A stretch of DNA of 64,000 bases, from NCBI RefSeq assembly GCF_004027225.2, contig NW_022651116.1:128918-192917 (forward strand), written 5' to 3'. Position numbers and translations under genes: made by a program. Shown here one piece after another: positions 28,716 to 64,000 of the stretch (positions within the stretch are counted from its first letter, which is position 1; each line of letters starts with the position of its first letter). A model generated the notes under the pieces. That model was not told the DNA's origin and did no database searches. It saw nothing but the letters and a program-made list of their open reading frames with translations. The DNA comes from Strigops habroptila. Lineage: Eukaryota; Chordata; Aves; Psittaciformes; Psittacidae.

Positions 28716-35908
<7,193 letters not shown>

Positions 35909-36050: not shown

Positions 36051-36509
36051 AGCTATTGGCAGCATCTCCCCCTGTCACTGCGTGGTGGCATATGGGGGGG
36101 TCACACACGGGGATCCCCCCCCCTCGCCCCGTTTCGGTTCCTTCCGGCCATGCCGGCGGCTCGGGGCGGGGCGGGGGGGGGGGGCAGGAAGCCCGATCTC
36201 CGCTTCCGTCCCCGCTATGGCGCTGGAGTCCATCCGGTACCGGCGCGGTTCCCTCTCGATCCTCAACCAGCTCCTGCTACCGGAGCAGCTCCGCTATGAG
36301 CGGGTGGACGGAGCGGAGCGCGCCTGGGAGGCCATCCACAGCATGGAGGTGACTTGTGGGGCAGAGGGGGGGGGACACACACACACGGGGACACCGGGGA
36401 CCCCCCCCCTCCCCGGACCCGGTTCCCCGAGCGCACCGCGCTGACACCGGCGGCGCCGCAGGTCCGGGGGAGCGCCGGCGATCGCCTTGGTCGGATGCTT
36501 GAGCCTGGC

Positions 36510-36620
36510 GCTGGAGCTGGCGGGCCGGTGCCGGGGCTGCCGGTGCCGGGATGCCGGTGCCGGGGCTGCCGGTTGCCGGGGCTGCCGGTGCCGGGGATGC
36601 CGGTGCCGGGGATGGGGTCG
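36510..36620 (+). repeat. Coding minisatellite inside MRI1 exon 2
   Basis: GGTGCCGGGGCTGCC and GGTGCCGGGATGCC repeats of 12-15 bases expand the exon between the LSLALELAG and VAALEAFVEQ blocks, adding a Gly/Ala-rich insert relative to the short AGAGG linker I recall in human. The frame changes within it. Confidence 0.75.
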
Positions 36621-36834
36621 CGGCGTTGGAAGCCTTCGTGGAGCAGCGCCTTCGGTTCCTGCTCACGGCGCGACCCACCGCGGTCAACCTGCACCGTGAG
36701 GCCGAGCGGCTCCGGGAGCGCCTGCGGGAATGGAGCCGGAGCCCCGGGATCACCGCCGGCGGGCTGCGAGAGCGGTACGGGCGCGGCGGGGGGTGGCGGG
36801 GGTGCCCCGTGGGGTGTTGGGGTGCTGGGGGGGT

Positions 36835-37915
36835 GTATTGGGGTGCTGAGGGGGGTATTGAGGTGTTGGGGGGTGTTGGGGTGTGAGGGGGATACTGGGG
36901 TGCTGAGGGGGATAGTGGGGTGCTGAGGGGGGTAGTGGGGTGCTAGGGGTCCTGGATGTGGTATTGGGGTGCTGGGGGGGGTAGTGGGGTGCTGGGGAGG
37001 TGTTTAGGGTGCCGGGGGGGGCAGTGGGGTGCGGGGGGGTGTTGGGTGCTGGGGGGTGCTGGGGTGCCGAGGGGGTATTGGGGTGCTGGGGGGTATTTGG
37101 GGTGCTGGGGGTGGGATTTTGGGGTGCTGGGGGGGTATTTGGGTGCTGGGGGGTATTTGGGTGCTGGGGGGGTAGTAGGGTCCGAGCGGGTATTGGGGTG
37201 CTATGGGGGGTGTTGGGGTGCTGGGGGGGGTAGTGGGGTGCTGAGGGTGTATTGGGGTGCCGGGGGGTGTACTGGGGTGCTGGGGGGTATTGGGGTGCTG
37301 AGGGGGGTATTGGGGTGCTGGAGGGGGTAGTGGGGTGCCAGGGGGATAGTGGGGTGCTGAGGGTGTATTGGGGGTGCTGGGGGTGTACTGGGGTGCTGGG
37401 GGGTATTGGGTGCTGAGGGGGGTATTGGGGTGCTGGAGGGGTAGTGGGGTGCCAGGGGATAGTGGGGTGCTGAGGGTGTATTGGGGTGCTGGGGGGGTAT
37501 TGGGATGCCGAGGGGGGTATTGGGTGCTGGGGGGGTAGGGGGGTGCCAGGGGGATAGTGGGGTGCTGGGGGTCCTGGGGGTGGTATTGGGGTGCTGGGGG
37601 GGTAGTGGGGTGCTGGGGGGCGTTGGGGTGCTGGGGGGTATTGGGGTGCTGAGGGGTAGTAGGGTGCCGAGGGGTGTTGGGGTGCTGGGGGTGCTGGGGT
37701 GCCAAGGGGGTATTGGGGTGCTGGGGAGGGTATTTGGGTGCTGGGGGGGGTAGTGGGGTGCTGGGGGGTGTTGGCGTGCTGGGGGTAGTGTTGGGGTGCT
37801 GGGGGTGATAGTGGGGTGCTGGGGGGTGGTGGGGTGCTGGTGGGGTATTGGGGTGCTGAGGGAGGTAGTGGGGTGCTGGGGGGGGTATTGGGGTGCTGGG
37901 GGGGGTGTTTGCTAC
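36835..37915. repeat. GGGGTGCTGGGGGGTATT minisatellite in MRI1 intron 2
   Basis: Units of 16-20 bases (TGGGGTGCTGGGGGGTATT), nearly 1.1 kb, G-rich on the sense strand. Confidence 0.94.
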
Positions 37916-38394
37916 CCAGGTTCATCCCCCCCCAGCATCATCGAGCACATCGAGGGGCTCTTGGCCAAGGACCGGGCGGACAACGAGAGCATCGGGGCTC
38001 ACGGAGCCCAGGACATCCTGCGCCGCGTCCCCGCCGGCGTCCCCGTCACCATCCTCACCCACTGCAACACCGGCAGCCTGGCCACGGCCGGCTACGGCAC
38101 CGCGCTCGGTGGGACCCCGACCCCCCCGAGCCCCCCCCAGCACCCCAAATCCCACCCACCACCCCCCCCCCCCCCCCCGCTGACCGCAGCACCCCGTTGC
38201 CTGCCGCAGGCATCGTGCGGGCGCTGCACGGGCAGGGCCGGCTGCGGCGGGTGCTGTGCACCGAGACCCGGCCCTACAACCAGGGCAGCCGCCTCACGGC
38301 CTTCGAGCTGCTCCACGACAACATCCCCGCCACCCTCATCGCCGACAGCGCCGCCGCCGCCGCCATGAGGGACTGCGGCGTCGATGGTGAGAGC

Positions 38395-38950
38395 CGGGAG
38401 GGAGCGCGGTGGGGATGGGATGGGGATGGCAGCGGGAGGGGATGGGGATGGGGCTGGCAACGGGATGGGGATGGCAACGGGGTGCGGATGGAGTTGGGAT
38501 GGGGATGGAGCTGGGATGGGGATGGGCATGGAGCTGGGATGGGGATGGCAGCGGGATGGGGATGGCAATGGGGTGGGGATGGAGCTGGGATGGGGATGGC
38601 AGCGGGATGGGGATGGCAATGAGGTGGGGATGGAGCTGGGATGGGGATGGCAATGGGAAGGGGATGGCACCAGGATGGGGATGGCAGCGGGATGGGGATG
38701 GAGTTGGGATGGGGATGGGGCTGTCAGCGGGATGGGGATGGGAGCTGGGATAGGGATGGGATGGGGATGGCAGTGGGATTGGGGATGGAGTGGGGATGGG
38801 GATGGAGTGGGGATGGGGATGGAGCTGGAATGGGGATTGGGATGGAGCTGGGATGGGGGATGGGGATGGCAACGGGATGGGGGTGGAGCCGGGATGGGAA
38901 TGGCACCGGGATAGGGATGGAGCTGGGATAGGGATGGAGCCGAGCCGGGG
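38395..38950. repeat. GATGGGGATGG repeat in MRI1 intron 4
   Basis: GGGATGGGGATGGCA and GATGGAGCTGGGATGGG units between exons 4 and 5. Confidence 0.92.
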
Positions 38951-39284
38951 CTGGTGCCGGGCCGGGCACACACACACTGACCGTCCCCTGGCCCCCCCCC
39001 GCAGCCGTGGTGGTGGGAGCCGACCGCCGTGGCGCCCAACGGGGACACGGCCAACAAGATCGGGACGTACCAGCTGGCGGTGGCCGCGCGGCACCACCGC
39101 GTCCCCTTCTACGTGGCGGCGCCGAGCTCGTCCTGCGACCCCGCGGTGCCGAGCGGGACCCACATCCCCATCGAGGAGCGGCCGGGCCGGGAGCTCACCC
39201 ACCTGCAGGGGGCTCTGCCTGGCCCCCCCCGGTGCGGTGCCCCACAGGCTGCTCATGGGCCCGGGGGGCCGTATGGGGCAGGGG

Positions 39285-40435
39285 GTTCCCATATAGGGCA
39301 GGGGGTCCCATATAGAGCAGGAGATCCCATATAGGGCAGGGTCCCATATAGGGCAGGGGGTCCCGTATAGGGCAGGGGGTCCCGTATAGGGAGAAGGGTC
39401 TTCTATAGGGCAGGGGTCCCGTATAGGGCAGGGGATCTTTTATAGGGCAGGGTGTCCTGTATAGGGCAGGAGGTCCCGTATAGCACAGGAGATCCCATAT
39501 AGGGCGGGGGGTCCCATATAGAGCAGGAGATCCCATATAGGGCAGAGGGTCTTGTATAGGGCAGGGGCTCCCGTATAGGGCAGGAGGTCCCGTATAGGGC
39601 AGGGGATCCCATATAGGGCAGGAGATCCCATATAGGGCACGGGGCCCCATATAGGGCAGGGGGTCCCGTATAGGGCAGGGGGTCCCGTATAGGGCAGGAG
39701 GTCCCGTATAGGGGAGGGGGTCCCATGTGTGGCTGGAGGGAGTCCTATATGGAATGGAGAGGTCCCGTATGGAGCAGAGGGTCCCATATAGGGCAGGGGG
39801 CTCCCCTATGGGTTTGGAGGGGTCCCACATGGAGTGAGGATCCCATAGGGGTTAGGGTCCTATATGAGACACGGGTGTTCCACGTGGCTTGGGGGTGTCC
39901 CCATTGCCCCCTGGGGGGTCTTATATGGGTTCCTATATAGGGTAGAGAGTCCCATGTGGGGCAGAGGGTCCCATATGAGGTGGGTAGGTCCTATATGGGG
40001 TATGGGGGGTCCTATATAGGGCAGGAGGGGTCCCATATAGGGCATGGGGGGTCCCATATAGGGCACGGGGGGGTCCCATATAGGGCGGGGGGTTCCATAT
40101 ATGGCACAGAGGGTCCCATATAGGGCACGGGGGGTCCCATATGCGGCACAGAGGGTCCCATATAGGGCACAGAGGGTCCCATATAGGGCACGGGGAGTCC
40201 TATATAGGGCACCGGGGGTTCCATGTAGGGCACGGGGGGTCCCATATAGGGCATAGGGGGTCCCATATAGGGCATGGTGGGTCCCATATAGGGCACGGGG
40301 GTCCCATATAGGGCAGGAGGGTGCCCATATAGGGCACGGGGGGGGTCCATATAGGGCAGGAGGGTGCCCATATAGGGCACGGGGGGGGTCCATATAGGGC
40401 AGGGGAGTCCCATATAGGGCACCGGGGGGCGGGGG
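39285..40435. repeat. CCCATATAGGGCA minisatellite in MRI1 intron 5
   Basis: Units of 17-19 bases (GGTCCCATATAGGGCAGGGG), about 60 copies, ending shortly before the last MRI1 exon. Each unit contains the palindrome-like CATATAG. Confidence 0.94.
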
Positions 40436-40729
40436 GTCCCACCTCCCCTCCCCCCCTCCCCCGTGACGCCGTTTCCCGCCATCTCCAGGTATCGACGTGT
40501 GGAACCCGGCGTTTGACGTCACGCCGCATGACCTCATCACGGGCGGCGTCGTCACCGAGTGGGGGGTGGTGCCCGCGAGCGACGTGCGCCGGGCGCTGGC
40601 GGAGCGCGCGGCCGCCGGGGGGCAGTAAAGCGCCTCCGCGTCCCGCCTCTATCCCATCGTGCCTTGCGCCGCCGCCGCCGCGCCTCTCTAGGCCCCGCCG
40701 TGCCGGAACCCGGAAGCGGCGGCGGCAGC

Positions 40730-41232
40730 ATGGCGCAGGGCAGGCCCAAGTCGGCGCCAAAGCGGCCCCGGAAGGCGGCGGCGGCGGCGGCGGCGGGAAC
40801 CGGGGCGCGGGGGCTGCGGAAGGGAGGTGAGACCGGGGGGGGGGGGAGTTGGGTTGGGTCTTATTGGGGTGTGGGGGGGGGATGGTCCCACCGACCCTTT
40901 ACCCCCCCCCCCCCAGGCCGCGCCATCGCGCCCAAGAAGCTCCACGTGATCCGGCAGCAGAAGCTGAAGAAGGTGAAGGGGGGGACAGGATATGGGGGGG
41001 CGGGGGAGGGGATGGGGCCAATGTGCCCCCCCCCCACCCCCCCAAATCTGACCCTTCCCTCCCCCCCCCCCCGCAGCGGCTCGAGGTCGGGATCCGCGCG
41101 CGGATCGAGCGGGACGCGCTGCAGCGCGCGAGCGCCGGCCCCCCCCCGCGGCTCGCGCTCCTCACCCCGCCCCCCGCCGCCTCTCAGCGCCCCGCCCCCC
41201 CCAAGGGCAAGGCCAAGAAGAGGCGGGGCTAA
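40730..41232 (+). CDS. C19orf53: C19orf53 homologue (leydig cell tumour 10 kDa protein-like)
   Basis: Small basic protein of 102 residues, function poorly known. Exons 40730-40826, 40917-40972 and 41077-41232 join in phase. Readable: MAQGRPKSAPKRPRK, an Ala run, KGGRAIAPKKLHVIRQQKLK, then RLEVGIRARIERDALQRASA and LALLTPPPA, ending KAKKRRG. The IAPKK, QQKLKK and EVGIR blocks match the UPF0390 family. Only 101 bases separate it from the MRI1 stop, so the two genes share a very tight head-to-tail junction. The Ala7 run is a GCG repeat. Confidence 0.92.
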
Positions 41233-41278: not shown

Positions 41279-41410
41279 GGCATTTTGGGGGGGACACACA
41301 CACACCCCCTTCTCCTTCTAAGGTGACGTTGTGGTGACGGCAGGAGGGCCCCGGGTGTGGGGAGGGGGGTTTTGGGGCCGCTCCTTTCCCGCTCCGTTCA
41401 TGCGGCCCCC

Positions 41411-41665
41411 GCGGAAGTGTTATGAATGGGTGGGAAAAAAAAAGCTCCCTAAGGCTCCGCCTCCTCGGCGCTGATTGGCTGCGGCAGCTGCCGCGCGCGG
41501 CGCGCCCCGCCCCTCGCAGTGATTGACGCGCAGCGGAAGTTTTATGAATGGGTGGGAAAAAAACTACCCCCGAGGCTCCGCCCCCCTCGGTGCTGATTGG
41601 CTGCGGCGCGCCCTGCCCTCCCAGTGATTGACGCGCGGCGGGGGCTGAGCTGTGATTGGCTCAAG
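41411..41665. promoter_or_regulatory. Duplicated CpG promoter-like module with inverted CCAAT boxes
   Basis: A module of 110-120 bases occurs twice (41411-41531 and 41532-41640): GCGGAAGT (ETS), TTATGAATGGGTGGGAAAAA, GGCTCCGCC, CTGATTGGCTGCGG, AGTGATTGACGCGC. A third ATTGGCT follows at about 41655. It sits where human ZSWIM4 would begin, but no ZSWIM4 coding sequence follows. It could equally serve an unannotated transcript in either direction. Confidence 0.55.
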
Positions 41666-41823
41666 GCTCCCGCTGGGGGGGGGGAGTCTGGAGGGAAGCT
41701 CTTAAAGGGGCCGCGTCTCGTTGTGTTATTGGGGGAAGGGGGGGCGGGACACGTGGGCAACCCCCCCGCGGGTGGGCGGATCTTGTTGGGGCGGTGCCGA
41801 AGCTCCTCCCCCACCGATGACGT

Positions 41824-41887: not shown

Positions 41888-41893
41888 TTTATT
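41888..41893 (-). terminator. Candidate poly(A) signal for the minus-strand pri-microRNA
   Basis: TTTATT on plus, AATAAA on minus, about 950 bases downstream of the miR-24-2 hairpin. No other minus-strand gene precedes it. Confidence 0.4.
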
Positions 41894-42836: not shown

Positions 42837-42912
42837 GACTCCTGTTCCTGCTGAACTGAGCCAGTTTAACCAAAGCAACTGCAAATCAGCTCAGTAGGCA
42901 CAGGAGGCAGCG
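42837..42912 (-). ncRNA. MIR24-2: mir-24-2 precursor
   Basis: The mature 3p arm is at 42842-42863 on minus (begins TGGCTCAGTT, ends GGAACAG). The 5p arm at about 42879-42900 begins TGCCTACTGAGCTGA and pairs with it. The loop is GCAGTTGCTTTGGTTAAA-like. Confidence 0.96.
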
Positions 42913-42999
42913 CCCGGGGGGGGCCCCGTGGCCTTGGGGGGGGGATCCCGGTGTCCTGGGGGGGGGATCCCGGTGTCCTGGGGGGGGATCCCGGTGTCC

Positions 43000-43072
43000 G
43001 GGGAGCGGAACTTAGCCACTGTGAACACGACCCGATGCCAACGCTGTTCACATGTGGGCTAAGCCCTACCCC
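43000..43072 (-). ncRNA. MIR27A: mir-27a precursor
   Basis: The mature 3p arm is at 43005-43025 on minus (begins TTCACAGTGG, ends GTTCCGC). The 5p arm near 43046-43067 begins AGGGCTTAGC. The bases preceding the 3p arm (GTCGT) also match mammalian mir-27a. Confidence 0.96.
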
Positions 43073-43162
43073 ACGGCGCCGGCTGCGGCGTGTCCCGGTG
43101 TTCCCGGTGTTCCCGGTGTGTCCCGGTGTGTCCCGGTGTTCCCGGCGGTGGCGGGTGCTGGC

Positions 43163-43238
43163 GCCCGTTGGAAATCCCTGGCAATGTGATTTTGGGCAGA
43201 AACGGTAAAAAATCGCATCGCCAGGAACCCCGGTGAGC
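43163..43238 (-). ncRNA. MIR23A: mir-23a precursor
   Basis: The mature 3p arm is at 43170-43190 on minus (begins ATCACATTGC, ends GGATTTCC). The 5p arm at about 43210-43231 reads GGGGTTCCTGGCGATGCGAT and pairs with it. Confidence 0.96.
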
Positions 43239-43319
43239 GGCAGCGGGGGGGGAGCGGGGGGGTACCGGGACCCCCCCACACACAGACCGGTGGCGGTGGT
43301 GGGTCAGGCTGGGTCAGTG

Positions 43320-44140
43320 CTCACAGGGGCTGTGGGGCACGGACACACATGGACACACATGGACACACATGGACATACATGGACATAGGGGTACATGGGG
43401 GCAGACGGACACACATGGACACACATGGACATAGGGACACACATGGACATAGGGACACACATGGACATACATGGACATAGGGATACATGGGGACACGGAC
43501 ACACATGGACACACATGGACACACATAGACATAGGGATACACATGGACATAGGGATACATGGACATACATGGACATAGGGACACACATGGACATAGGGAC
43601 ACACATGGACATACATGGACATAGGGGTACATGGGGGCAGACAAGACAGATACCCCTGGACATAGGGACATGGACACATGGACACACACATGGACACATG
43701 CAGACACACATGGACACAGGCACACACGTGGACACATACACAGACACGGGCACACACAGATGGACACACACGGACACGCATGGACACAGGCACACACAGA
43801 CACACGGGGACACACACGGACACACATGGACACATACAGATGGACACAGGCACACACACACAGGCACACGGACACACATGGACACACACATGGACACACA
43901 TGGACACACACACGGACACAGGTGCACACACACACACGGACACACACATGGACACACACATGGACATGGATACACACACACGGACACACACACACACACG
44001 GACACACACATGGACACGGACACACACACACGGACACACACACGGACACACATGGACATGGACACGCACACACAGACACACACACAGACACACGGACACA
44101 CACATGGACACGGACACACACACACGGACACACACGCGGG
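43320..44140. repeat. ACACACATGGACAC minisatellite
   Basis: Units of 10-12 bases (ACACATGGACACAC) with two longer duplicated blocks (43330-43470, 43560-43640). Alternating purine-pyrimidine over 800 bases; potential Z-DNA. Minus-strand frames reading CVCVCVS are artefacts. Confidence 0.93.
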
Positions 44141-44530
44141 CACCGCCCCGGTGCGGGCGCGCGAGGCTGACTCATGGCGCGGGCACGTGCCAGCACCGGC
44201 CGGTGCCATCGGCGCCGCCACGTGAGAGCCGGGACGTGCCCGGGCACGGCCGGGGGGGGCTGAGCCAGGGGCGCCAGGACCCCCCGGGGATGCGGCTGTG
44301 GGGCGGCTGTGGGGCAGCCGTGGGGCAGCCGTGGGGTCAAAGCTCCGGCGGTGCCGGTGCCAGGCCCCCCGTGTCCCCGTGGATGTGGCCATGGGGTGGC
44401 CGTGGGGCAGCCATAGGGCACCGTGGGGCTCGGTATCCCCAGCCAGGCAGCGGATGTGGGTGTCGAGGCTCTGGTGGTGGCACCGTGTCCCCCTGGTGCC
44501 AGTGCCAGGACCCCCGTGTCCTTATGGATG
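44141..44530. other. Intergenic stretch, no gene seen
   Basis: GC-rich with AP-1/MARE-like GCTGACTCA at 44167-44175 and CGTGGGGCAGCC repeats. Possible upstream regulatory DNA of the minus-strand microRNA cluster, unproven. Confidence 0.4.
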
Positions 44531-53714: not shown

Positions 53715-55917
53715 TTACGTTCTGGCACACGGTTTATTGTCCGTCCGAGCCCCGGCCCGGTAATAAACGGGCTCCCCGGGGCTGCCCCGTTCCACCGGCT
53801 CCAGCCGCCTCCTGCCCGGGTTCGGTGGCCCCGGGCGCCGGCTCCGCCGCGGCTTCGGCCTCCTCAGCGCCTCCAGGCCCCGGTGGGCGCCCATGGCCAA
53901 GCGGCTGGTGGGGGGGGCACCGCGTCAGCCCCCGGCCCGGCCCCGCATCCCGGCCCAAATCCCTTGGGAAAAGCCTTACTTGAGGTCCGAGAGCTCCCGG
54001 ATGAGGCCGCAGATGATGGGGGTCGCGTCCTCCCTGTGGGGCACATGGGGGGGCTGTCGCCATTCCCGCTCTTCCAGGCGCCGGGAACACGGAGCAGCCC
54101 CCGGGACACCCACCTCGGGGCCTCTTCGGAGCGGTGCCGGGTGTCCTGTGGGACAACGGGGAATGGGTTGGGATGGAGGTGGCTCCGAGCCGTGCCCTTG
54201 GGCACTGCCGGGGAGGGGGAATGAGCCGGGGTCCCCCCTGCTCCGAGCCCGGCGGGTTATTCCCGCTTTTCCCGGTGATTTCCACTAGATCGGGGCAGTT
54301 CTGGGGGTTATTCCATGGGCAGGTGGGTGCTGCCACGGATTTACCTGGCGCTGTGGCGGCAGCTCCAGGGTGCTCCCTTCCTGGGGCTCATCCCGGGGCT
54401 CCTTCAGCTCATCCCGGGGCTCATCCCGGGGCTCATCCCGGGGCTCCTGCAGCTCATCCCGAGGCTCATCCCGGGGCTCCTCCTGCAGCTCATCCCGGGG
54501 CTCATCCCGGGGCTCCTGCAGCTCATCCCGGGGCTCATCCCGAGGCTCATCCCGGGGCTCCTGCACCTCATCCCGGGGCTCATCCTGAGGCTCCTCCCGG
54601 GGCTCCTGCAGCTCATCCCGGCGCTCCTTCTGCAGCTCATCCGGATACTCATCCCGGGGCTTACCCTGGGGCTCCTGCAGCTCATCCCGGGGCTCATCCC
54701 GGGGCTCATCCCGGGGCTCCTTCTGCAGCTCATCCGGATGCTCACCCCAGGGCTCCTGCAGCTCATCCCGGGGCTCATCCCGGGGCTCATCCCGGGGCTC
54801 CTTCTGCAGCTCATCCGGATGCTCACCCCGGGGCTCCTGCAGCTCACCCCGGGGCTCATCCCGGGGCTCCTGCTGAGGCTCATCCCGAGGCTCCTGCAGC
54901 TCATCCCGGGGCTCATCCCAATACTCACCCCGGGGCTTACCCTGGGGCTCCTGCAGCTCATCCTGGGGCTCATCCCGATGCTCATGCCGAGGCTCCTGCA
55001 GCTCATCCCGGGGCTCATCCTGATGCTCGTCCCGTGGCTCCTGCAGCTCATCCCGATGCTCATCCTGTGGCTCCTCCCAAGCCTCATCCCGGGGCTCCTC
55101 CCGGGGCTCACCCTGGGGCTCCGGCAGCTCATCCCGATGCTCATCCTGAGGCTCATCCCAAGCCTCATCCCGATGCTCATCCCGAGGCTCCTTCAGCTCA
55201 TCCCGGGGCTCATCCCGAGGCTTACCCTGAGGCTCCTGCAGCTCATCCCGCAGCTCATCCCGATGCTCATCCCGGAGCTCATCCCGCGGCTCCTGCAGCT
55301 CCTCCCGCTGCTCCTCCCGGGGCCCGTCCCCGCCACCCGCAGCGGAGCCCGCGGGGGGCGGTCCCGGCGCGGTCTCCTCCTGCTCGGTGCCGCGGTCCAG
55401 CTCCGCGCTGCCCCCGGGCCACGGCGCCCGCGTCCCCGCCTGCTCCCGGCGCTGCTCCGCGCTGCGAAGCCGACATCCCCCCCTTCACACCGGCCCCGGC
55501 GCTGCCCCCCGGGCCCGGCCCCGGCCCCGGCCCCGTCACCTCCTCCCCGCGGCCGCCGCTTGTCCCGGGGACGGAGCCTCCTCCTCTCCCGGCGGCTTCT
55601 GCTTCGCTTTGGGGACGTGGAGTCCGGCGGCCGCTGCTCGGGAGGGGGGGAAGTGTTTTTGGGGGGCTCTTTAGCCCCAATTCCCGGGGTCCCCCCCACC
55701 CCGAAACCCGCGGGGGGGGGGGGGGGGCGGGTTCAGCGCTTTAACGGGGCTCGCACGGAGCCGGTACCGGGGACACCGGGGGGGGGGGTGTTTGTCACCG
55801 CAAACGGGCTCGTTCCCCGTCGGCTTTAAAGGCGTTTGTTTGAAGCCGTCGTGGTGTGAATGGAGGCACCGACCCGGACCCGGTACCTGCCGCCGGCTCC
55901 TTCTTCCTCTTGCCCAT
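53715..55917 (-). CDS. BRME1: BRME1 (C19orf57), meiotic recombination factor with a pentad-repeat middle
   Basis: In mammals BRME1 binds HSF2BP (which binds BRCA2) and helps load RAD51/DMC1 in meiosis. Six coding exons: 55887-55917 ([10 protein letters not shown]), 55540-55606, 54345-55461, 54114-54145, 53980-54033, 53715-53904; they join in phase to 496 residues. The assignment rests on the KRKK start, the C-terminal [20 protein letters not shown] block, which resembles the human C-terminus as I recall it, and synteny. The 1117-base exon is a degenerate array of DEPRDE/DELQEP units. The acceptor of exon 2 (CCCCAAAG) is weak, so the second exon is the least certain. The stop at 53715-53717 lies just past a poly(A) signal. 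Confidence 0.82.
53733..53767. terminator. Convergent poly(A) signals of NANOS3 and BRME1
   Basis: Minus-strand AATAAA (TTTATT at 53733-53738) and plus-strand AATAAA (53762-53767) lie 23 bases apart. The minus signal sits inside the last BRME1 codons. The two transcripts must overlap tail to tail. Confidence 0.7.
54390..55310 (-). repeat. Coding minisatellite of 15-base units in BRME1
   Basis: About sixty degenerate units of GAGCCCCGGGAT (EPRD) and GAGCTGCAG (ELQ) keep one minus-strand frame open for 372 codons. Other frames across the array are also fairly open, but only this one connects in phase to conserved exons on both sides. The product is dominated by Glu, Asp, Arg, Pro, Leu and Gln. 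Confidence 0.88.
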
Positions 55918-56868: not shown

Positions 56869-59800
56869 CTCCCTTGGGAATGGAGGCGCTGGTGGCGGCG
56901 CTGCGCCTGGAGGAGCCGCGGGAGCAGGAGGAGGAGGAGGAGGAGGAGGAAGGGCTCCCGGTGAGGAAGGGCTGGAGCTGCGCAGCCCCCGCGGGCGGTT
57001 CCGGGCCGGGGTCGCGCTGACGGAGCCTCCGGCGCTTCCAGGCGCGGCCGCAGGAGGCGCTGACGGAGCCCGCGCGGCCCCGCCTCCGGCCCAGCTGCGG
57101 GACGGGCCCGGCCACGGCGAGCCACGGGGAGGGATCCAAAGGGAGGGATCTAAAGGGATCCAGAGGGATCTAAAGGGACACAGAGGGATCCAGAGGGAGG
57201 GATCTAGAGGGATCCAAAGGGACCCAGAGGGATCTAAAAGGATCTGGAGAGTTCTAAAGGGACTTGTATCCAGATGGAGGGATCTAAAGGGACCCAGAGG
57301 GATCCAGAGGAATCCAATGGGAGGGATCCAGAGGGATCTAAAGGGATCCAGAGAGATCTAAAGGGACCAAGAGGGAGGGATCCAGAGGGACTCAGAGGGA
57401 GAGATCCAGAGGGAGGGATCCAGAGGGATCTGAAGGGACCCAAACGGATCTAAAGGGACTTGTATCCAGGTGGAGGGATCTAAAGGGATCCAGAGGGAGG
57501 GATCTAAAGGGATCCAGAGGGCCCTAAAGGGATCCAGAGGGAGGATCCAGAGAGATCTAAAGGGATCCGGAGGGATCTGAAGGGACTTGTATCCAGATGG
57601 ATCTAAAGGGATCCGGAGGGATCTGAAGGGTTCCAGAGGGACCTAAATGGACCCAGAGGGACCCAGGGGGAGGGATCCAAAGGGATCCAGAGGGATCCAG
57701 AGGGACTCAGAGGGAGGGACCCAGAGAGATCCATAGGGAGGGATCCATCGGGAGGGATCCAGAGCTCCGTGGCTGCTTCCCAGCCCTTCCTGCTCGCTTT
57801 TCCCTCGGGATCACAGCGCCCATGGAGCGCCCGGAGGCCAGGAAGGGGCTCAGGGGGGCAAAGAAGGGATCTGGGGCTGGATGAGGCCTCCAGGCTCCCT
57901 CGTCCCGGGGGCTGAGCGGGCTGTGGGGAGCGCCGGAGCCGCCGGAATTCCACCCCCCCCTCCCCCCCATCATTCCCGGGGCTGTGTCAGCCCCCATCCG
58001 CCCCGGCTTGGAATTCCCATGGGAATGCCGGCGGGGTTTTGCTCCGGCAGAGGACCGATGCTCTCCTGGATGCTGCGGCCAAGGGGCAGCCGCTGGAGCC
58101 GAGCCCGGTGCCGCCGCCGCCTCCCGGTAAATCCCGGTGCTCCCGGTTGTGCCCCGCGGCGTTCCCGCTGCTCCCGGCGCCGCGTCCATCCCGCCCGTCC
58201 CCACAGGTCAGCTCCCGGAGCAGCCGGAGCCGCGTCCCACGGCGGAGCCTGAGGCCGAGCCCGATCCTGCTCCCGGTGCAGGTCAGAGCCTCTCCCCCTC
58301 CCGCCCCACAGCGGGGGCTTGACCCACAGCGGGATCCCCTTCCCACTCCCACTCCCGTTCCCATTCCTCTTCCCGTTCCCATTCTCACTCCCATTCCCCT
58401 TCCCATTCCCATTCTTGTTCCCATTCCTATTCCCATTCCCACTCCCATTCCCATTCCCTTTCCTGTTCCCACTTCGATTCCTCTTCCCGTTCCCATTCCC
58501 ATTCCCATTCCTATTCCCACTCGCACTCCCATTCCCACTCTCATTCCCATTCCCGTTCCTATTCCTGTTCCCACTCCCGTTCCCTTTCCCACTCCCGTTC
58601 CCATTCCCATTCCTGTTCCCCTTCCTGTTCCCATTCCCATTCCCACTTCCATTCCCATCCCACTCCCATTCCCACTCCCATTCGCACTCCCACTCTCATT
58701 CCCATTCCCATTCCCACTCCACTCCCATTCCCATTCCCACTCCCATTCCCCTTCCCATTCCCTTTCCTTTTCCCACTTCCATTCCCATTCCCGTTCCTAT
58801 TCCTATTCCCACTCGCACTCCCATTCCCACTCTCATTCCCATTCCTGTTCCTATTCCCGTTCCCCTTCCCACTCCCATTCCCCTTCCCGTTCCTGTTCCC
58901 ATTCCCGTTCCCATTCCCATCCCATTTCCATCCCATCCCATTCCCATTCCTGTTCCCGTTCCTATTCCTGTTCCCATTCCCACTCCCATTCCCGTTCCCA
59001 TTCCTGTTCCTGTTCCTGTTCCTATTCCCATTCCCATTCCCGCTCCCATTCCCATCCCATTCCCATCCCATCCCACTCCCATTCCCCTTCCCGTTCCCAT
59101 TCCTGTTCCTGTTCCTGTTGTTATTCCCGCTCCCATTCCCATCCCATTCCCATCCCATCCCGTTCCCATTCCCGCTCCTGCTGCCATCCCATTCCCGCTC
59201 CCATTCCCGCTCCCATTCCCATCCCATTCCCATCCCATCCCATTCCCATTCCTGCTCCTGCTGCCATACCATTCCTGCTCCCATTCCCGCTCCCATTCCC
59301 ATCCCATCCCGCTCCCATTCCCCTTCCTGTTCCCATTCCCATTCCCGTTCCTATTCCCATTCCTGCTCCCATTCCCGCTCCCATTCCCATCCCATTCCCA
59401 TCCCATCCCGCTCCCATTCCTCTTCCCATTCCCGCTCCCATTCCTGCTCCCATTCCCCTTCCCCATCCTGTTCCCATTCCCATCCCATTCCCATCCCATC
59501 CTGCTCCCATTCCCATCCCGCTCCCATTCCCATCCCATTCCCATCCCACCCCATCCCATCCCATCCCGGCAGGCGGGGGGGCCGTGCTGCCGGCGCTGCG
59601 GCTCCGCTTGTGCCGTTACGAGGCGGCGGCGGCGGCGGCGGCGGCGCGGGGGGACGCGCGCAAGGCCCGGATGCACCAGCGCATCGTCAAGGTACCGGAG
59701 CCCCCCCCCGGGACCCCCCCGGGACCCCCCCAAACCCCCCCGGACCCCCCGGTTCCCGCTCAGCTCCCGCCTCCCATCGCAGCAATACCAGGAGGCCATC

Positions 59801-62255
59801 CGGGCCCTGGCAGCCGGCAGAGCCGTGGATCTCTCGGAGCTTCCCGTGCCCCCAGGTACCCCCCCCCGGCCCGGCGCGGGCAGGGCGCGCATCCTGCACT
59901 TGGGGGGGGGGGGGGGGCGCTTTTCCCACCCCTTGGCCAGGATTCCCGCCCCTGCAGGGCGCGGATGCGGGAGCGGAGCGGAGCGTGGCCGAGCTGCTGG
60001 AGCAGGCGCTGAGGCTCGCGGGGCACCAGGAGCCCAAGGACGGGGATGGAGCCGAGGAGACGCGGATCCCGGAGCAGATCCCGGTGCGGATCCCGGTGCA
60101 GATCCCGGTGCAGATCCCAGAGCAGATCCCGGAGCAGGTCCCGGCACAGCCCAGAGGTGCCGGTGCCGGTTCCCAGCCCCGGCAGCTGCCTCCTCCCGGA
60201 GCGACCGGAGCCGCCGCCAAAGGCAGCAGCAGAGGTACCGGGGGGAGGCAGCGGGAGCCGGCCCGGAGCTGGAGGCAACGCGGGGGCCTCACCCTGCTCC
60301 TTCCCTCCTTCCTCCTCTTCTTCCTCCCTTTCTGTTCCTCTTCTTCCTCCCTTTTTCCTCCCTTTATTCTTCTCTTCTTCGTCCTTTATTCCTCTTCTTC
60401 TTCTTCCGTTGTTCTTTCTCTTTTTCTTCCTTTCTTCCTCCCTTTTTGCTCGTCTTGTTTCTTCTTTCTTCCTCCTGTTCTTTCACCCTTTTTCTCTTCT
60501 TCCTCCTTGTGTTCTTCTCTTCTTCCTCCGTTCTTCCCCCTCTTCTTCCTCTCTTCCTCCTTTTCTTCTCCTCTTCTTCCTTCCTTCTTACCCTTCTTCT
60601 TGCTCCTTTCTTCTTCTCTTTCTTCTTTTCTTCTTCCTCCCTTTTTCCTTCCTTTTTCCTTCCTCATTTCTCCCTTTTTCCTCCCTTTCTTCTTCCCTTC
60701 TTCTTCTCTTCTTCCTCTCTTGTTCCTTCCTTCTTCCTCCCATCTTCGCCCTCTTCTTCCTCATTTCTTTCTCCTTCTTCTTTTTTTCCTTTCTTCTTCT
60801 CCCTCTTCTTCCTCCCTTCTTCCCCCTCTTGTTTTTCCTTTTTTCCTCCCTTTCGTCTGCTCTTCTTCTTCCCTTTCTTCTCTTGTTCTTGCTCTCTTCT
60901 TCCTCCTTTTCTTTCCCCTTTCTTCCTGCTTTATTTGTCCTTTCTTCCTCCCTTTCTTTTCCTCTTTTTCCTCCTTTCTTCCTCCTCTTCTTCCTCTCTT
61001 GTTTCTCCTTTTCTTCTTCTCTTCTTCAACCCTTCTTCCCCTTCTTCTTCCTCATTTCTTCCTCTTTCTTCTCTTTTTCATTTCTTCTTCCACCTCTTCT
61101 TTCTCTGTTCTTCTTCCCTTACTTCTTCTCTTCTTCTTTCTTTCTTCCTCCTTTCTTCCTCTGTTCTTCATCCTTTCTTCCTCCCTTTCTTCCTCCCTTT
61201 CTTCCTCCTCTTCTTCCTCCCTTCTTCCCCTTCTCTTCCCCCTTTCTTCCTCCCCTTTTTCCTCCCCTTTACCCCTTCTCTCCCCCTTTGTCCCCCCAGC
61301 CCAGCAGCAGCTCCATTTCCTGGAATGCCGTCGGAAGCAGCTGCTGGAAGCTGCTTTGGGATCCAAGCGCCGCGGGGACGTGGAGGGGGCGAAGCTGTTC
61401 CTGCGCCGCGCCAAGGCGCTGGAGCCGGCGCTGGAGGCGTCTCGCCAGGGCCTCCCGGTGGACATCAGCAAGGTCCGGCCGGGAATGAGCTCCCACCTCA
61501 TCCCATTCCATCCCCATCCCAATCCCATCCTATCCCCATCCCATCCCCATCCCATCCCATCCCCATCCCATCCCCATCCCCATCCCCATCCCATCCCCAT
61601 CCCATCCCCATCCCATCCCATCCCCATCCCCATCCCATCCCCATCCCCATCCCATCCCCATCCCCATCCCATCCCATCCCCATCCCATCCCATCCCCATC
61701 CCCATCCCCATCCCATCCCCATCCCATCCCATCCCCATCCCATCCCCATCCCATCCCCATCCCCATCCCCATCCCCATCCCATCCCATCCCCATCCCATC
61801 CCCATCCCCATCCCCATCCCATCCCCATCCCATTCCCATCCCACCCCATTCCCACCCATTCCCACCCCATCCCCACCCCATTCCCACCCCATTCCCACCC
61901 TATTCCCACCCATTCCCACCCCATCCCCATCCCATCCCCATCCCATCCCCACCCCATCCCCACCTCATCCCCACCCCATTCCCGCCCCATCCCCACCCCA
62001 TTCCCGCCCCATCCCCACCCCATTCCCGCCCCATTCCCGCCCCATCCCCACCCCATTCCCGCCCCATTCCCACCCCATTCCCACCCCATTCCCGCCCCAT
62101 CCCCACCCGGCGCCGCTCCCCGTGTGCCGCAGGTGCCGGAGGCGCCGGGACTCCCGGAGCTGTTCGTGCTGGAGCCGCGCGGCGGCGCCGGGATCGCGCC
62201 GGCTGCGGCCTCCCGATACCTGGAGCTGATGCGGCTGCTCCGGCGCCAGCACGAG
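56869..62255 (+). CDS. CC2D1A: CC2D1A (partial), coiled-coil and C2 domain protein with DM14 repeats
   Basis: Scaffold/transcriptional repressor (Freud-1) that binds CHMP4-type ESCRT-III via DM14 domains and acts in signalling. Exons seen: 56869-56960 (PLGMEALVAAL plus an acidic run), 58051-58126, 58207-58275 (or to 58281), 59573-59691, 59783-59855, 59941-60234, 61300-61472, 62133-62255; phases join. DM14 signatures: YEAAAAAAAARGDARKARMH, IVKQYQEAIRALAAGRAVDL, SELPVPPG; and LHFLECRRKQLLEAALGSKR, FLRRAKALEPALEASRQGLP. The final exon ends SRYLELMRLLRRQHE. The first DM14 and half of the second are not found, and the N-terminal exon is absent. The C2 domain lies beyond base 64000. Confidence 0.92.
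57120..57765. repeat. GGGATCTAAAGGGATCCAGA repeat in CC2D1A intron
   Basis: Units of 10-20 bases (GGGATCTAAAGG, GATCCAGAGGGAGG) sit where exons for the first DM14 domain are expected. A candidate exon at 57042 onward (ARPQEALTEPARPR) is too doubtful to call. Confidence 0.92.
58325..59572. repeat. TTCCCATTCC simple repeat in CC2D1A intron
   Basis: 1.2 kb of six-base CCATTC/CCGTTC/CTGTTC units with larger duplicated blocks, ending at the acceptor of exon 59573. Confidence 0.95.
60290..61295. repeat. Polypyrimidine CTTCTTCC tract in CC2D1A intron
   Basis: 1 kb with almost no purines on the sense strand; TTCTTCCTCCC units. Triplex (H-DNA) potential. Confidence 0.96.
61495..62110. repeat. CCCATCCCCATCC repeat in CC2D1A intron
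   Basis: Short 5-6 base CATCCC repeats changing to CCCACCCCATTCC after 61840, between exons 61300-61472 and 62133-62255. Confidence 0.96.
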
Positions 62256-62279: not shown

Positions 62280-64000
62280 GGGGAGCGAGGAGGAAGGAAA
62301 CGAGCTGCTTCCTTCCTGCTTCCTCCCTGCTTCCCTCCTCTTCCCCCCTTCTTCCTCCCCTTATCCCCCTCTTCATCCTCCTTTCTTCCCCCTTGTTCCC
62401 CCTCTTCTTCCTGCTCTTTTTCCTCCCTTCTTCCTCCCTTTTCCCCCTTCTTCCTCCCTTCTTCCTCCCTTCTTCCCATCTTCTTCACCCTTTCTTCCTT
62501 CCTTCTTCCTCCCTTTTTCCCCCTCTTCTTTCTCTCTTCTTCTTCCCTTCTTCCCCCTCTCCTTTCCCCTCTTCTTCCTCCCTTTTTCATCCTCCTCTTC
62601 CTCCTTTCTTCTCCCCTTCTTCCTCCCTTTATCCTCCTCTTCTTCCTCCCTTTTCCCCCCTTCTTCCTCCCTTCTTCCCCATCTTCTTCCTCCTTTCCTC
62701 CTCCCTTTATTCCCCCGTCTTCCTCCCCTTTTCCCCCTCTTCTTCCTCCCTTCTTCCTCCCTTCTCCCCGTTCTCTTCACCCTTTCTTCCTTCCTTCTTC
62801 CTCCCTTTTTCTCCCTCTTCTTTGTCCCTGCTTCTTCCCTTCTTCCCCCTTTTCTTTCCCCTTTTCTTCCCTCCTTCTTCCTCCCTTTTCCCCCTCTTCT
62901 TCCTCCTTTCTTCCTCCCTTGTTCCCCTCTTCTTCCTTCCTTTTTCCTCCCTTCTTCCTGCCTTTTCTCCCTCTTCTTCCTCTCTTCTTCCTCCCTTTAT
63001 CCCCCTCTTCTTCTCCCCTTCTTCCTCCATTTTTCCTCCCTTTTTCCCCGTCTTCTTCCTCCCTTCTTCCCCTTCTTCTTTCTTCTTTCTTCCTCCTTTC
63101 TTCCCCTCTGTCTTCCTCCTTTCTTCCTCCCTTCTTCTTCCCTTCCTCCCTTTTTCTTTCCTTCTTCCTCCCTTCTTCCCCCTCTTTTTCCTCCCTTCTT
63201 CCTCCCTTTTTCCCCCTCTTCTTCCTCCTTTTTTCTTTTCTTCTTTCTTCTTTCTTCTTCCCTTTTTCCTTTTCTTCTTCCTCGTTTTATCCCCCCCTCT
63301 TCCTCCCTTTTTCCCTCTCTTTTTCCTCCCTTCTTCTTCCCTTCTTCCCCGTTTCCTCCATTCTTCTTCCCTTTTTCTTGCCGCCTTCTTCCTTTCTTCC
63401 TCCCTTTTTCCTCCTCTTCTTCCTCCTCTTCTTCCCCCCTTCTTCACCCTCTTCTTCCCCTTCTTTTTCCTCCCTTTTTCCTCCTTTCTTCCTCCTTTCT
63501 TCCTCCCTTCTCCCCATTTTCTTCACCCTTTCTTCTTTCCTTCTTCCTCCCTTTTTCCCCCTCTTCTTTGTCCGTGCTTCTTCCCTTCTTCCCCCTTTTC
63601 TTTCCCCTTTTCTTCCCCCCTTCTTCCTGCCTTTATCCCCCTCTTCTTCCTGCTTTCTTTCCCGCCTTCTTCCCCCTCTTCTTCTTCCCTTCTTTCTCCC
63701 TTTTCTCTCTCTTCTTCCTCCCTTCCTCCTCCCTTCTTCCTCCATTTTTCCTCCTTTTTTCCCCCTGTTCTTCCTCCTTTCTTCCTCCCTTCTTTTTCCC
63801 TTCCTCCCTTTTTCTTTCCTTTTCCTCCCTTCTTTCCCCTCTTTTTCCTTTCTTTTTCCTTTCTTCCTCTCTTCTTCCCTCTCTTTTTCCTCCCTTCTTC
63901 TTCCCTTCTTCCCCCTTTTCTTCCTCCCTTCCTCCTCCTCTTCTTCCCGTTTTCCCTCTCTTCTTCCTCTTTTCTTCCTTTCTTCTTTCTCTTTTCTTCC
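62280..64000. repeat. Polypyrimidine tract continuing off the right edge
   Basis: 1.7 kb of TTCTTCCTCCCTTTTTCCCC units downstream of the last visible CC2D1A exon. The block around TTCTTTGTCCCTGCTTCTTC (about 62818) recurs at about 63564, an offset near 746 bases, so a higher-order repeat is present. Confidence 0.95.

Follow-up and report, generated by a model that had tools for sequence, protein, structure and literature searches.

A predicted miR-23a~27a~24-2 microRNA cluster in minisatellite-rich DNA of Strigops habroptila

Three hairpins on one strand

The DNA analysed here, 'the window', is a stretch of 64,000 nucleotides from contig C88 (NW_022651116.1, positions 128,918 to 192,917) of the Strigops habroptila assembly GCF_004027225.2. 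When the 64-kb window is scanned with cmscan, only three Rfam families reach their gathering scores—mir-24, mir-27 and mir-23—and their matches lie side by side on the minus strand: three hairpins in the order 23-27-24 (5' to 3') within 401 bp, at 42839–43239. The original prediction had placed a cluster here, too, but with coordinates one base off (42838–43238). The human mature and precursor sequences, and the human gene map, are the reference with which we compare the cluster.

42839–42908, minus strand: mir-24-2 hairpin (Rfam RF00178, 80.8 bits, E 1.3e-17; gathering score 50)
42842–42863, minus strand: miR-24-3p mature arm (0 mismatches to human miR-24-3p)
42998–43076, minus strand: mir-27a hairpin (Rfam RF00644, 73 bits, E 1.4e-14; gathering score 48.5)
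43005–43025, minus strand: miR-27a-3p mature arm (0 mismatches to human a-type, 1 to b-type)
43162–43239, minus strand: mir-23a hairpin (Rfam RF00642, 62.7 bits, E 1.2e-11; gathering score 52)
43170–43190, minus strand: miR-23a-3p mature arm (0 mismatches to human a-type, 2 to b-type)

The hairpins are intact and their 3p arms exact, as predicted. Members of the a-type are recognized by the ends of these arms, UUUCC in miR-23a-3p and UUCCGC in miR-27a-3p, and the miR-23 and miR-27 arms of the window end in just this way. The a-type identity claimed for all three microRNAs stands, then, for miR-23 and miR-27, but not for miR-24-3p, which is not diagnostic because it is identical in the a- and b-types. 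The mir-24 5p arm has four mismatches to human 24-2 and five to 24-1; the precursor scores 108 against 24-2 and 103 against 24-1, with ungapped identities of 87.0% and 96.9%, respectively. Sequence alone does not separate 24-2 from 24-1, and so the '-2' label rests on position. The mir-23 precursor shares 79.5% ungapped identity with human 23a and 83.6% with 23b, and scores 93.5 against the first and 85.0 against the second.

Folding the precursors, a check that came with the original prediction, supports all three. Their minimum free energies are -33.9 (mir-24), -41.5 (mir-27) and -34.4 (mir-23) kcal/mol, with z-scores of -2.85, -3.83 and -3.43; shuffled sequences fold as well as the native ones in 0, 0 and 1 of 200 cases, respectively. 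Each hairpin is paired as the MirGeneDB-type hairpin criterion prescribes.

The repeat setting

42909–42997: spacer between mir-24 and mir-27 (89 bp, 92% tandem repeat by TRF, 21–22 bp unit)
43077–43161: spacer between mir-27 and mir-23 (85 bp, 76% tandem repeat by TRF, 9 bp unit)

The cluster was predicted to lie inside minisatellite DNA, and its two spacers, together with the surrounding 10 kb (59% tandem repeat by TRF), confirm this. TRF cover of the hairpins is 0% for mir-24, 8% for mir-27 and 0% for mir-23. Contig C88 is 62.9% GC, with its 5,565 N included in the denominator, and 47% tandem repeat, and it is rich in GC and minisatellite over almost all of its 0.24 Mb. These values fit the proposal that the a-type cluster was hidden in unassembled GC-rich DNA, and older bird catalogues may have missed it.

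Gene neighbours

3000–27000 (approximate), minus strand: CACNA1A exons (Ion_trans matches for four of the five ORFs searched; the fifth by PDB match)
28800–35908 (approximate), plus strand: YJU2B/CCDC130 exons (exon motifs; Saf4_Yju2, 55.6 bits for one exon)
36217–40628 (ends by eye), plus strand: MRI1 (methylthioribose-1-phosphate isomerase) exons (IF-2B, 67.8 bits; PDB 4ldq, 85.3 bits; exon frames)
40730–40826, 40917–40972 and 41077–41232, plus strand: exons of the C19orf53 ortholog, the third ending with the stop codon
53114–53461, plus strand: NANOS3-like coding exon (zf-nanos, 84.9 bits; PDB nanos protein 3alr, 85.5 bits; frame)
53740–54284 (approximate), minus strand: BRME1-like C-terminal exons, weak (Pfam Brme1, 15.5 bits; cut-off 27)
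59700–62255 (approximate), plus strand: CC2D1A-like exons, weak (Pfam CC2D1A-B_DM14, 14.5 bits for two joined exons; cut-off 24.6)

The fifth CACNA1A ORF finds its best PDB match in Cav2.1 (142.7 bits, versus 97.7 bits for Cav2.3). C19orf53 is recognizable once spliced: its exons carry GT/AG splice signals and form a frame of 102 aa that matches Pfam DUF2462 (62.8 bits), whereas the unspliced ORFs match nothing in Pfam or PDB. An ORF at 53737–54387, which overlaps the BRME1-like stretch in another frame, has no Pfam match, nor does a single CC2D1A-like exon searched alone; the CC2D1A-like exons were picked by eye. Very long polypyrimidine tracts with extreme strand skew occupy 60300–61290 and 62280–64000, within the CC2D1A-like introns.

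The human a-type cluster lies at 19p13, between C19orf53/ZSWIM4 and NANOS3, on the strand opposite to both. The bird cluster, on the minus strand between plus-strand C19orf53 and NANOS3, matches this map, and the conserved order and synteny of the original prediction are upheld. Seven of the eight human neighbours are present, BRME1 and CC2D1A weakly so, with order and direction kept. The missing one is ZSWIM4, which was found neither by a SWIM-type motif search of C88 nor by a genome-wide search for the PF21055 family. The matches to the SWIM-type motif on C88 were rejected, their frames appearing low-complexity or unrelated. PF21055 occurs as three full-length exons in the genome, on contigs C26, C8 and C25, and as three partial matches on C5. 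The C25 and C26 exons are alike at 176 of 178 residues, as are 84.5% of the 3,620 columns in one blastn piece; this likeness fits a ZSWIM6 Z/W pair, and the full-length C-terminal exons look to us like ZSWIM5 and that ZSWIM6 pair. Gene loss and missing sequence are both possible reasons for the absence of ZSWIM4.

Two further Rfam matches occur on the same contig, C88. One, at C88:68562-68628 (L022:8562-8628), is to SNORD41 (43.5 bits; cut-off 41), whose human host gene, TNPO2, is also at 19p13; it would lengthen the synteny. The other, at C88:209620-209806 (L011:6820-7006), is to uc_338 (TUC338; 164.3 bits), an ultraconserved element of a PCBP gene.

Two clusters in one genome

The b-type cluster, miR-23b~27b~24, occupies C26:58824063-58824899. 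Contig C26 is very likely the Z chromosome, and the 3p ends of this cluster are of the b-type, in agreement with the b-type cluster on Z of which the original prediction speaks. Among the best candidates scored genome-wide (62 for mir-24, 59 for mir-27 and 60 for mir-23), two loci per family exceed the cut-off: those on C26 and C88. The miR-27b 3p arm on C26 (L005:1501-1579) ends UUCUAC, one base apart from the vertebrate UUCUGC.

The two clusters have much in common—families, order, strand arrangement, seeds and miR-24-3p—and the mir-24 hairpins agree at 63 of the 66 positions that align without gaps. One might suppose from this that the C88 cluster is a recent duplicate of the Z-linked one, inserted at its present location. 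The rest of the comparison makes that very hard to believe: the diagnostic 3p bases on C88 are a-type, the mir-23 and mir-27 hairpins of the two clusters are only 76% and 73% alike, and the flanking genes correspond to the neighbours of the a-type cluster in humans. The architectures differ, too. The b-type cluster spans 837 bp, with spacers of 454 and 160 bp in place of 89 and 85 bp, and its 10-kb locus is 39.8% GC and 1.7% tandem repeat, far below the values for C88.

Outside their mature arms, the a-type hairpins have diverged more than the b-type, in loops and 5p arms. Compared with human a-type sequences, the C88 cluster is unchanged at all 64 positions of the mature arms and at 115 of 156 elsewhere; for the C26 cluster, compared with human b-type sequences, the counts are 63/64 and 145/157. 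The Rfam scores of the C26 hairpins are 88.8, 86 and 80.2 bits for mir-24, mir-27 and mir-23, all higher than those on C88. When the a- and b-type hairpins of the genome are folded together to a consensus, both sides of a pair have changed in 2 of 25 pairs for mir-27, 2 of 20 for mir-24 and 0 of 17 for mir-23. This covariation is weak support, because three of the four changed pairs (both in mir-24, one in mir-27) lie in or beside the loop, and because consensus pairs tend, by construction, to suit both sequences.

Divergence of this extent also bears on the origin of the contig. C88 is small, 241,945 bases and one of 89 contigs in the assembly, and could be thought mammalian or otherwise foreign, a contaminant. 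We give this hardly any credence: only 74% of hairpin positions outside the mature arms (115/156) resemble human ones, the neighbours take up much less DNA than they do on the human map, the GC- and minisatellite-rich character extends along nearly the whole contig, and the miR-27 arm was found in 0 viral and 0 prokaryotic contigs.

A predicted transcript

41888–41893, minus strand: AATAAA, a candidate poly(A) signal that lies 946 nt beyond mir-24-2
44144–44297, minus strand: putative promoter, a weak candidate, CpG-rich and without tandem repeat, upstream of mir-23a

From 39 to 46 kb, the minus strand contains a single AATAAA or ATTAAA, the one at 41893. The window has ten AATAAA sites versus 3.28 expected from shuffles; four of them lie in the polypyrimidine region at 60–63 kb, two lie in or beside CACNA1A, and three are close to where C19orf53, NANOS3 and BRME1 end. 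The candidate promoter is the unmasked run within 44001–44500, where the CpG observed/expected ratio is 0.72, and has rivals in other CpG-rich stretches at 45–47 kb. It includes TGACTCA at 44168 and CACGTG at 44184 and 44219, motifs that both exceed expectation across the window: CACGTG occurs 25 times versus 12.75 expected, a count reached by 0 of 100 shuffles, and eight of these sites are at 24.8–25.6 kb.

Downstream of C19orf53, at 41400–41660, are two near-copies of a sequence with inverted CCAAT-type and GC-rich boxes (identified by eye); a CRE-like site comes after them, near 41818. The near-copies could be the promoter of an unrecognised transcript.

We are largely confident that the locus is a bird's ortholog of the miR-23a~27a~24-2 cluster of vertebrates, predicted to be co-transcribed and processed into three repressors of mRNA. 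RNA polymerase II would make a single minus-strand primary transcript of ~2.4 kb, starting in the CpG-rich stretch at 44.1–44.3 kb and ending by way of the AATAAA at 41893. Drosha and then Dicer would cut this transcript into miR-23a, miR-27a and miR-24, and these, once loaded into Argonaute, would repress seed-matched targets as in mammals. The Drosha, Dicer and Argonaute steps are established microRNA biology. In this reading, miR-24-3p would come from autosomal and Z loci both. Selection would hold the mature arms, and the spacers and loops would be rewritten by minisatellite expansion and by GC-biased change.

Judged from its sequence, the a-type locus is likely a working gene, because the hairpins keep their mature sequences within repetitive, GC-rich DNA. 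The same surroundings could be read in the opposite sense, as those of a decaying relic, readable but silent, its promoter or spacers destroyed by minisatellite invasion. The repeat content of the spacers (92% and 76%) would suit a relic, as would the drift of non-mature positions (115/156, below the 145/157 of the C26 cluster) and Rfam scores (80.8, 73 and 62.7 bits) lower than those of the C26 hairpins. A relic is improbable, nevertheless, given that all 64 mature-arm positions have been kept despite the drift elsewhere, that the stems fold with z-scores below -2.8, and that an AATAAA lies downstream on the correct strand. The working ortholog that we favour is likely a retained copy of a well-known vertebrate cluster in difficult DNA, and in kind it is not surprising.

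A broader proposal is that birds keep a working autosomal a-type cluster, lost from short-read assemblies and catalogues because it sits in minisatellite-rich microchromosome DNA, that sets a floor under the uncompensated dosage of the Z-linked b-type cluster. We advance this tentatively, and rather doubt it. With such a floor, male bias would be weaker for miR-24 and for the seeds of miR-23/27 than for the other Z-encoded microRNAs.

Significance for bird microRNAs

Expression of the a-type locus would mean that, in this bird, the Z is not the only source of miR-23, miR-24 and miR-27, and their sex bias would have to be reread. A locus would also be at hand for reads with a-type ends, which cannot be mapped to assemblies missing the DNA of C88. 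The cluster has uses both for bird microRNA catalogues and for the study of Z-linked microRNA dosage.

Zebra finch provides the background. There, according to the accessible text of Luo et al. 2012 (PMC3585881), miR-23b, miR-24 and miR-27b are among seven microRNAs that only the Z encodes, and most of these seven are slightly higher in males. The main text of that paper does not mention miR-23a, miR-27a or miR-24-2. Some 40% of the reads were unmapped, and 21 microRNAs were recognized only among these, as the same portions report; the 21 could already include miR-23a or miR-27a. They also report internal changes of >5% in 32 microRNAs, 25 of which, with a GGU-motif change, are printed in Table 2. 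That table, as far as the available portions go, is neutral on a-type reads, because a mixed pool of miR-27b and miR-27a falls outside it. Also described there is an A-to-G change at position 15 of miR-24 reads. A hidden paralog as the source of this change we reject, at least in this bird, since the miR-24-3p of the window has A at position 15.

Other sources say little, in those parts available to us. A chicken review has a single table entry for Gga-miR-27a, with neither sequence nor locus. In another paper, mention of miR-23a, miR-27a and miR-24-2 concerns cattle, pig and sheep; in an alligator paper, the members of the miR-23a cluster are named only in a reference title. The MirGeneDB 2.1 paper has chicken as a founding species, and its main text, in the form available, does not mention mir-23, mir-24 or mir-27. 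Bird assembly papers (including PMC8505442), in the sections at hand, annotate microRNAs in bulk and do not name the a-type cluster. In the open literature, as far as it was accessible, we found no description of an avian a-type locus. Duck assemblies, in the available part of their description (PMC8505442), recovered 'missing' protein genes largely on GC-rich microchromosomes. The cluster suggests that DNA of this kind can also house small conserved RNA genes, and apparent losses of bird microRNAs therefore need rechecking on complete assemblies.

Comparison with known clusters

The tgu-mir-24(3) cluster of zebra finch (PMC3585881), as given in the accessible text, comprises mir-24, mir-27b and mir-23b; it is b-type, unlike the cluster of the window. 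The closer counterpart is the mammalian MIR23A~27A~24-2 cluster, at 19p13 in humans. The bird locus departs from this in its minisatellite spacers, in its diverged loops and 5p arms (115/156 positions kept) and in ZSWIM4, which was not found in the searches above. With it, the bird locus shares order, strand and three exact 3p arms; the two are of similar span, 401 bp in the bird and 373 bp in humans; and the neighbours from CACNA1A to CC2D1A come in the same order in the bird as on the human map.
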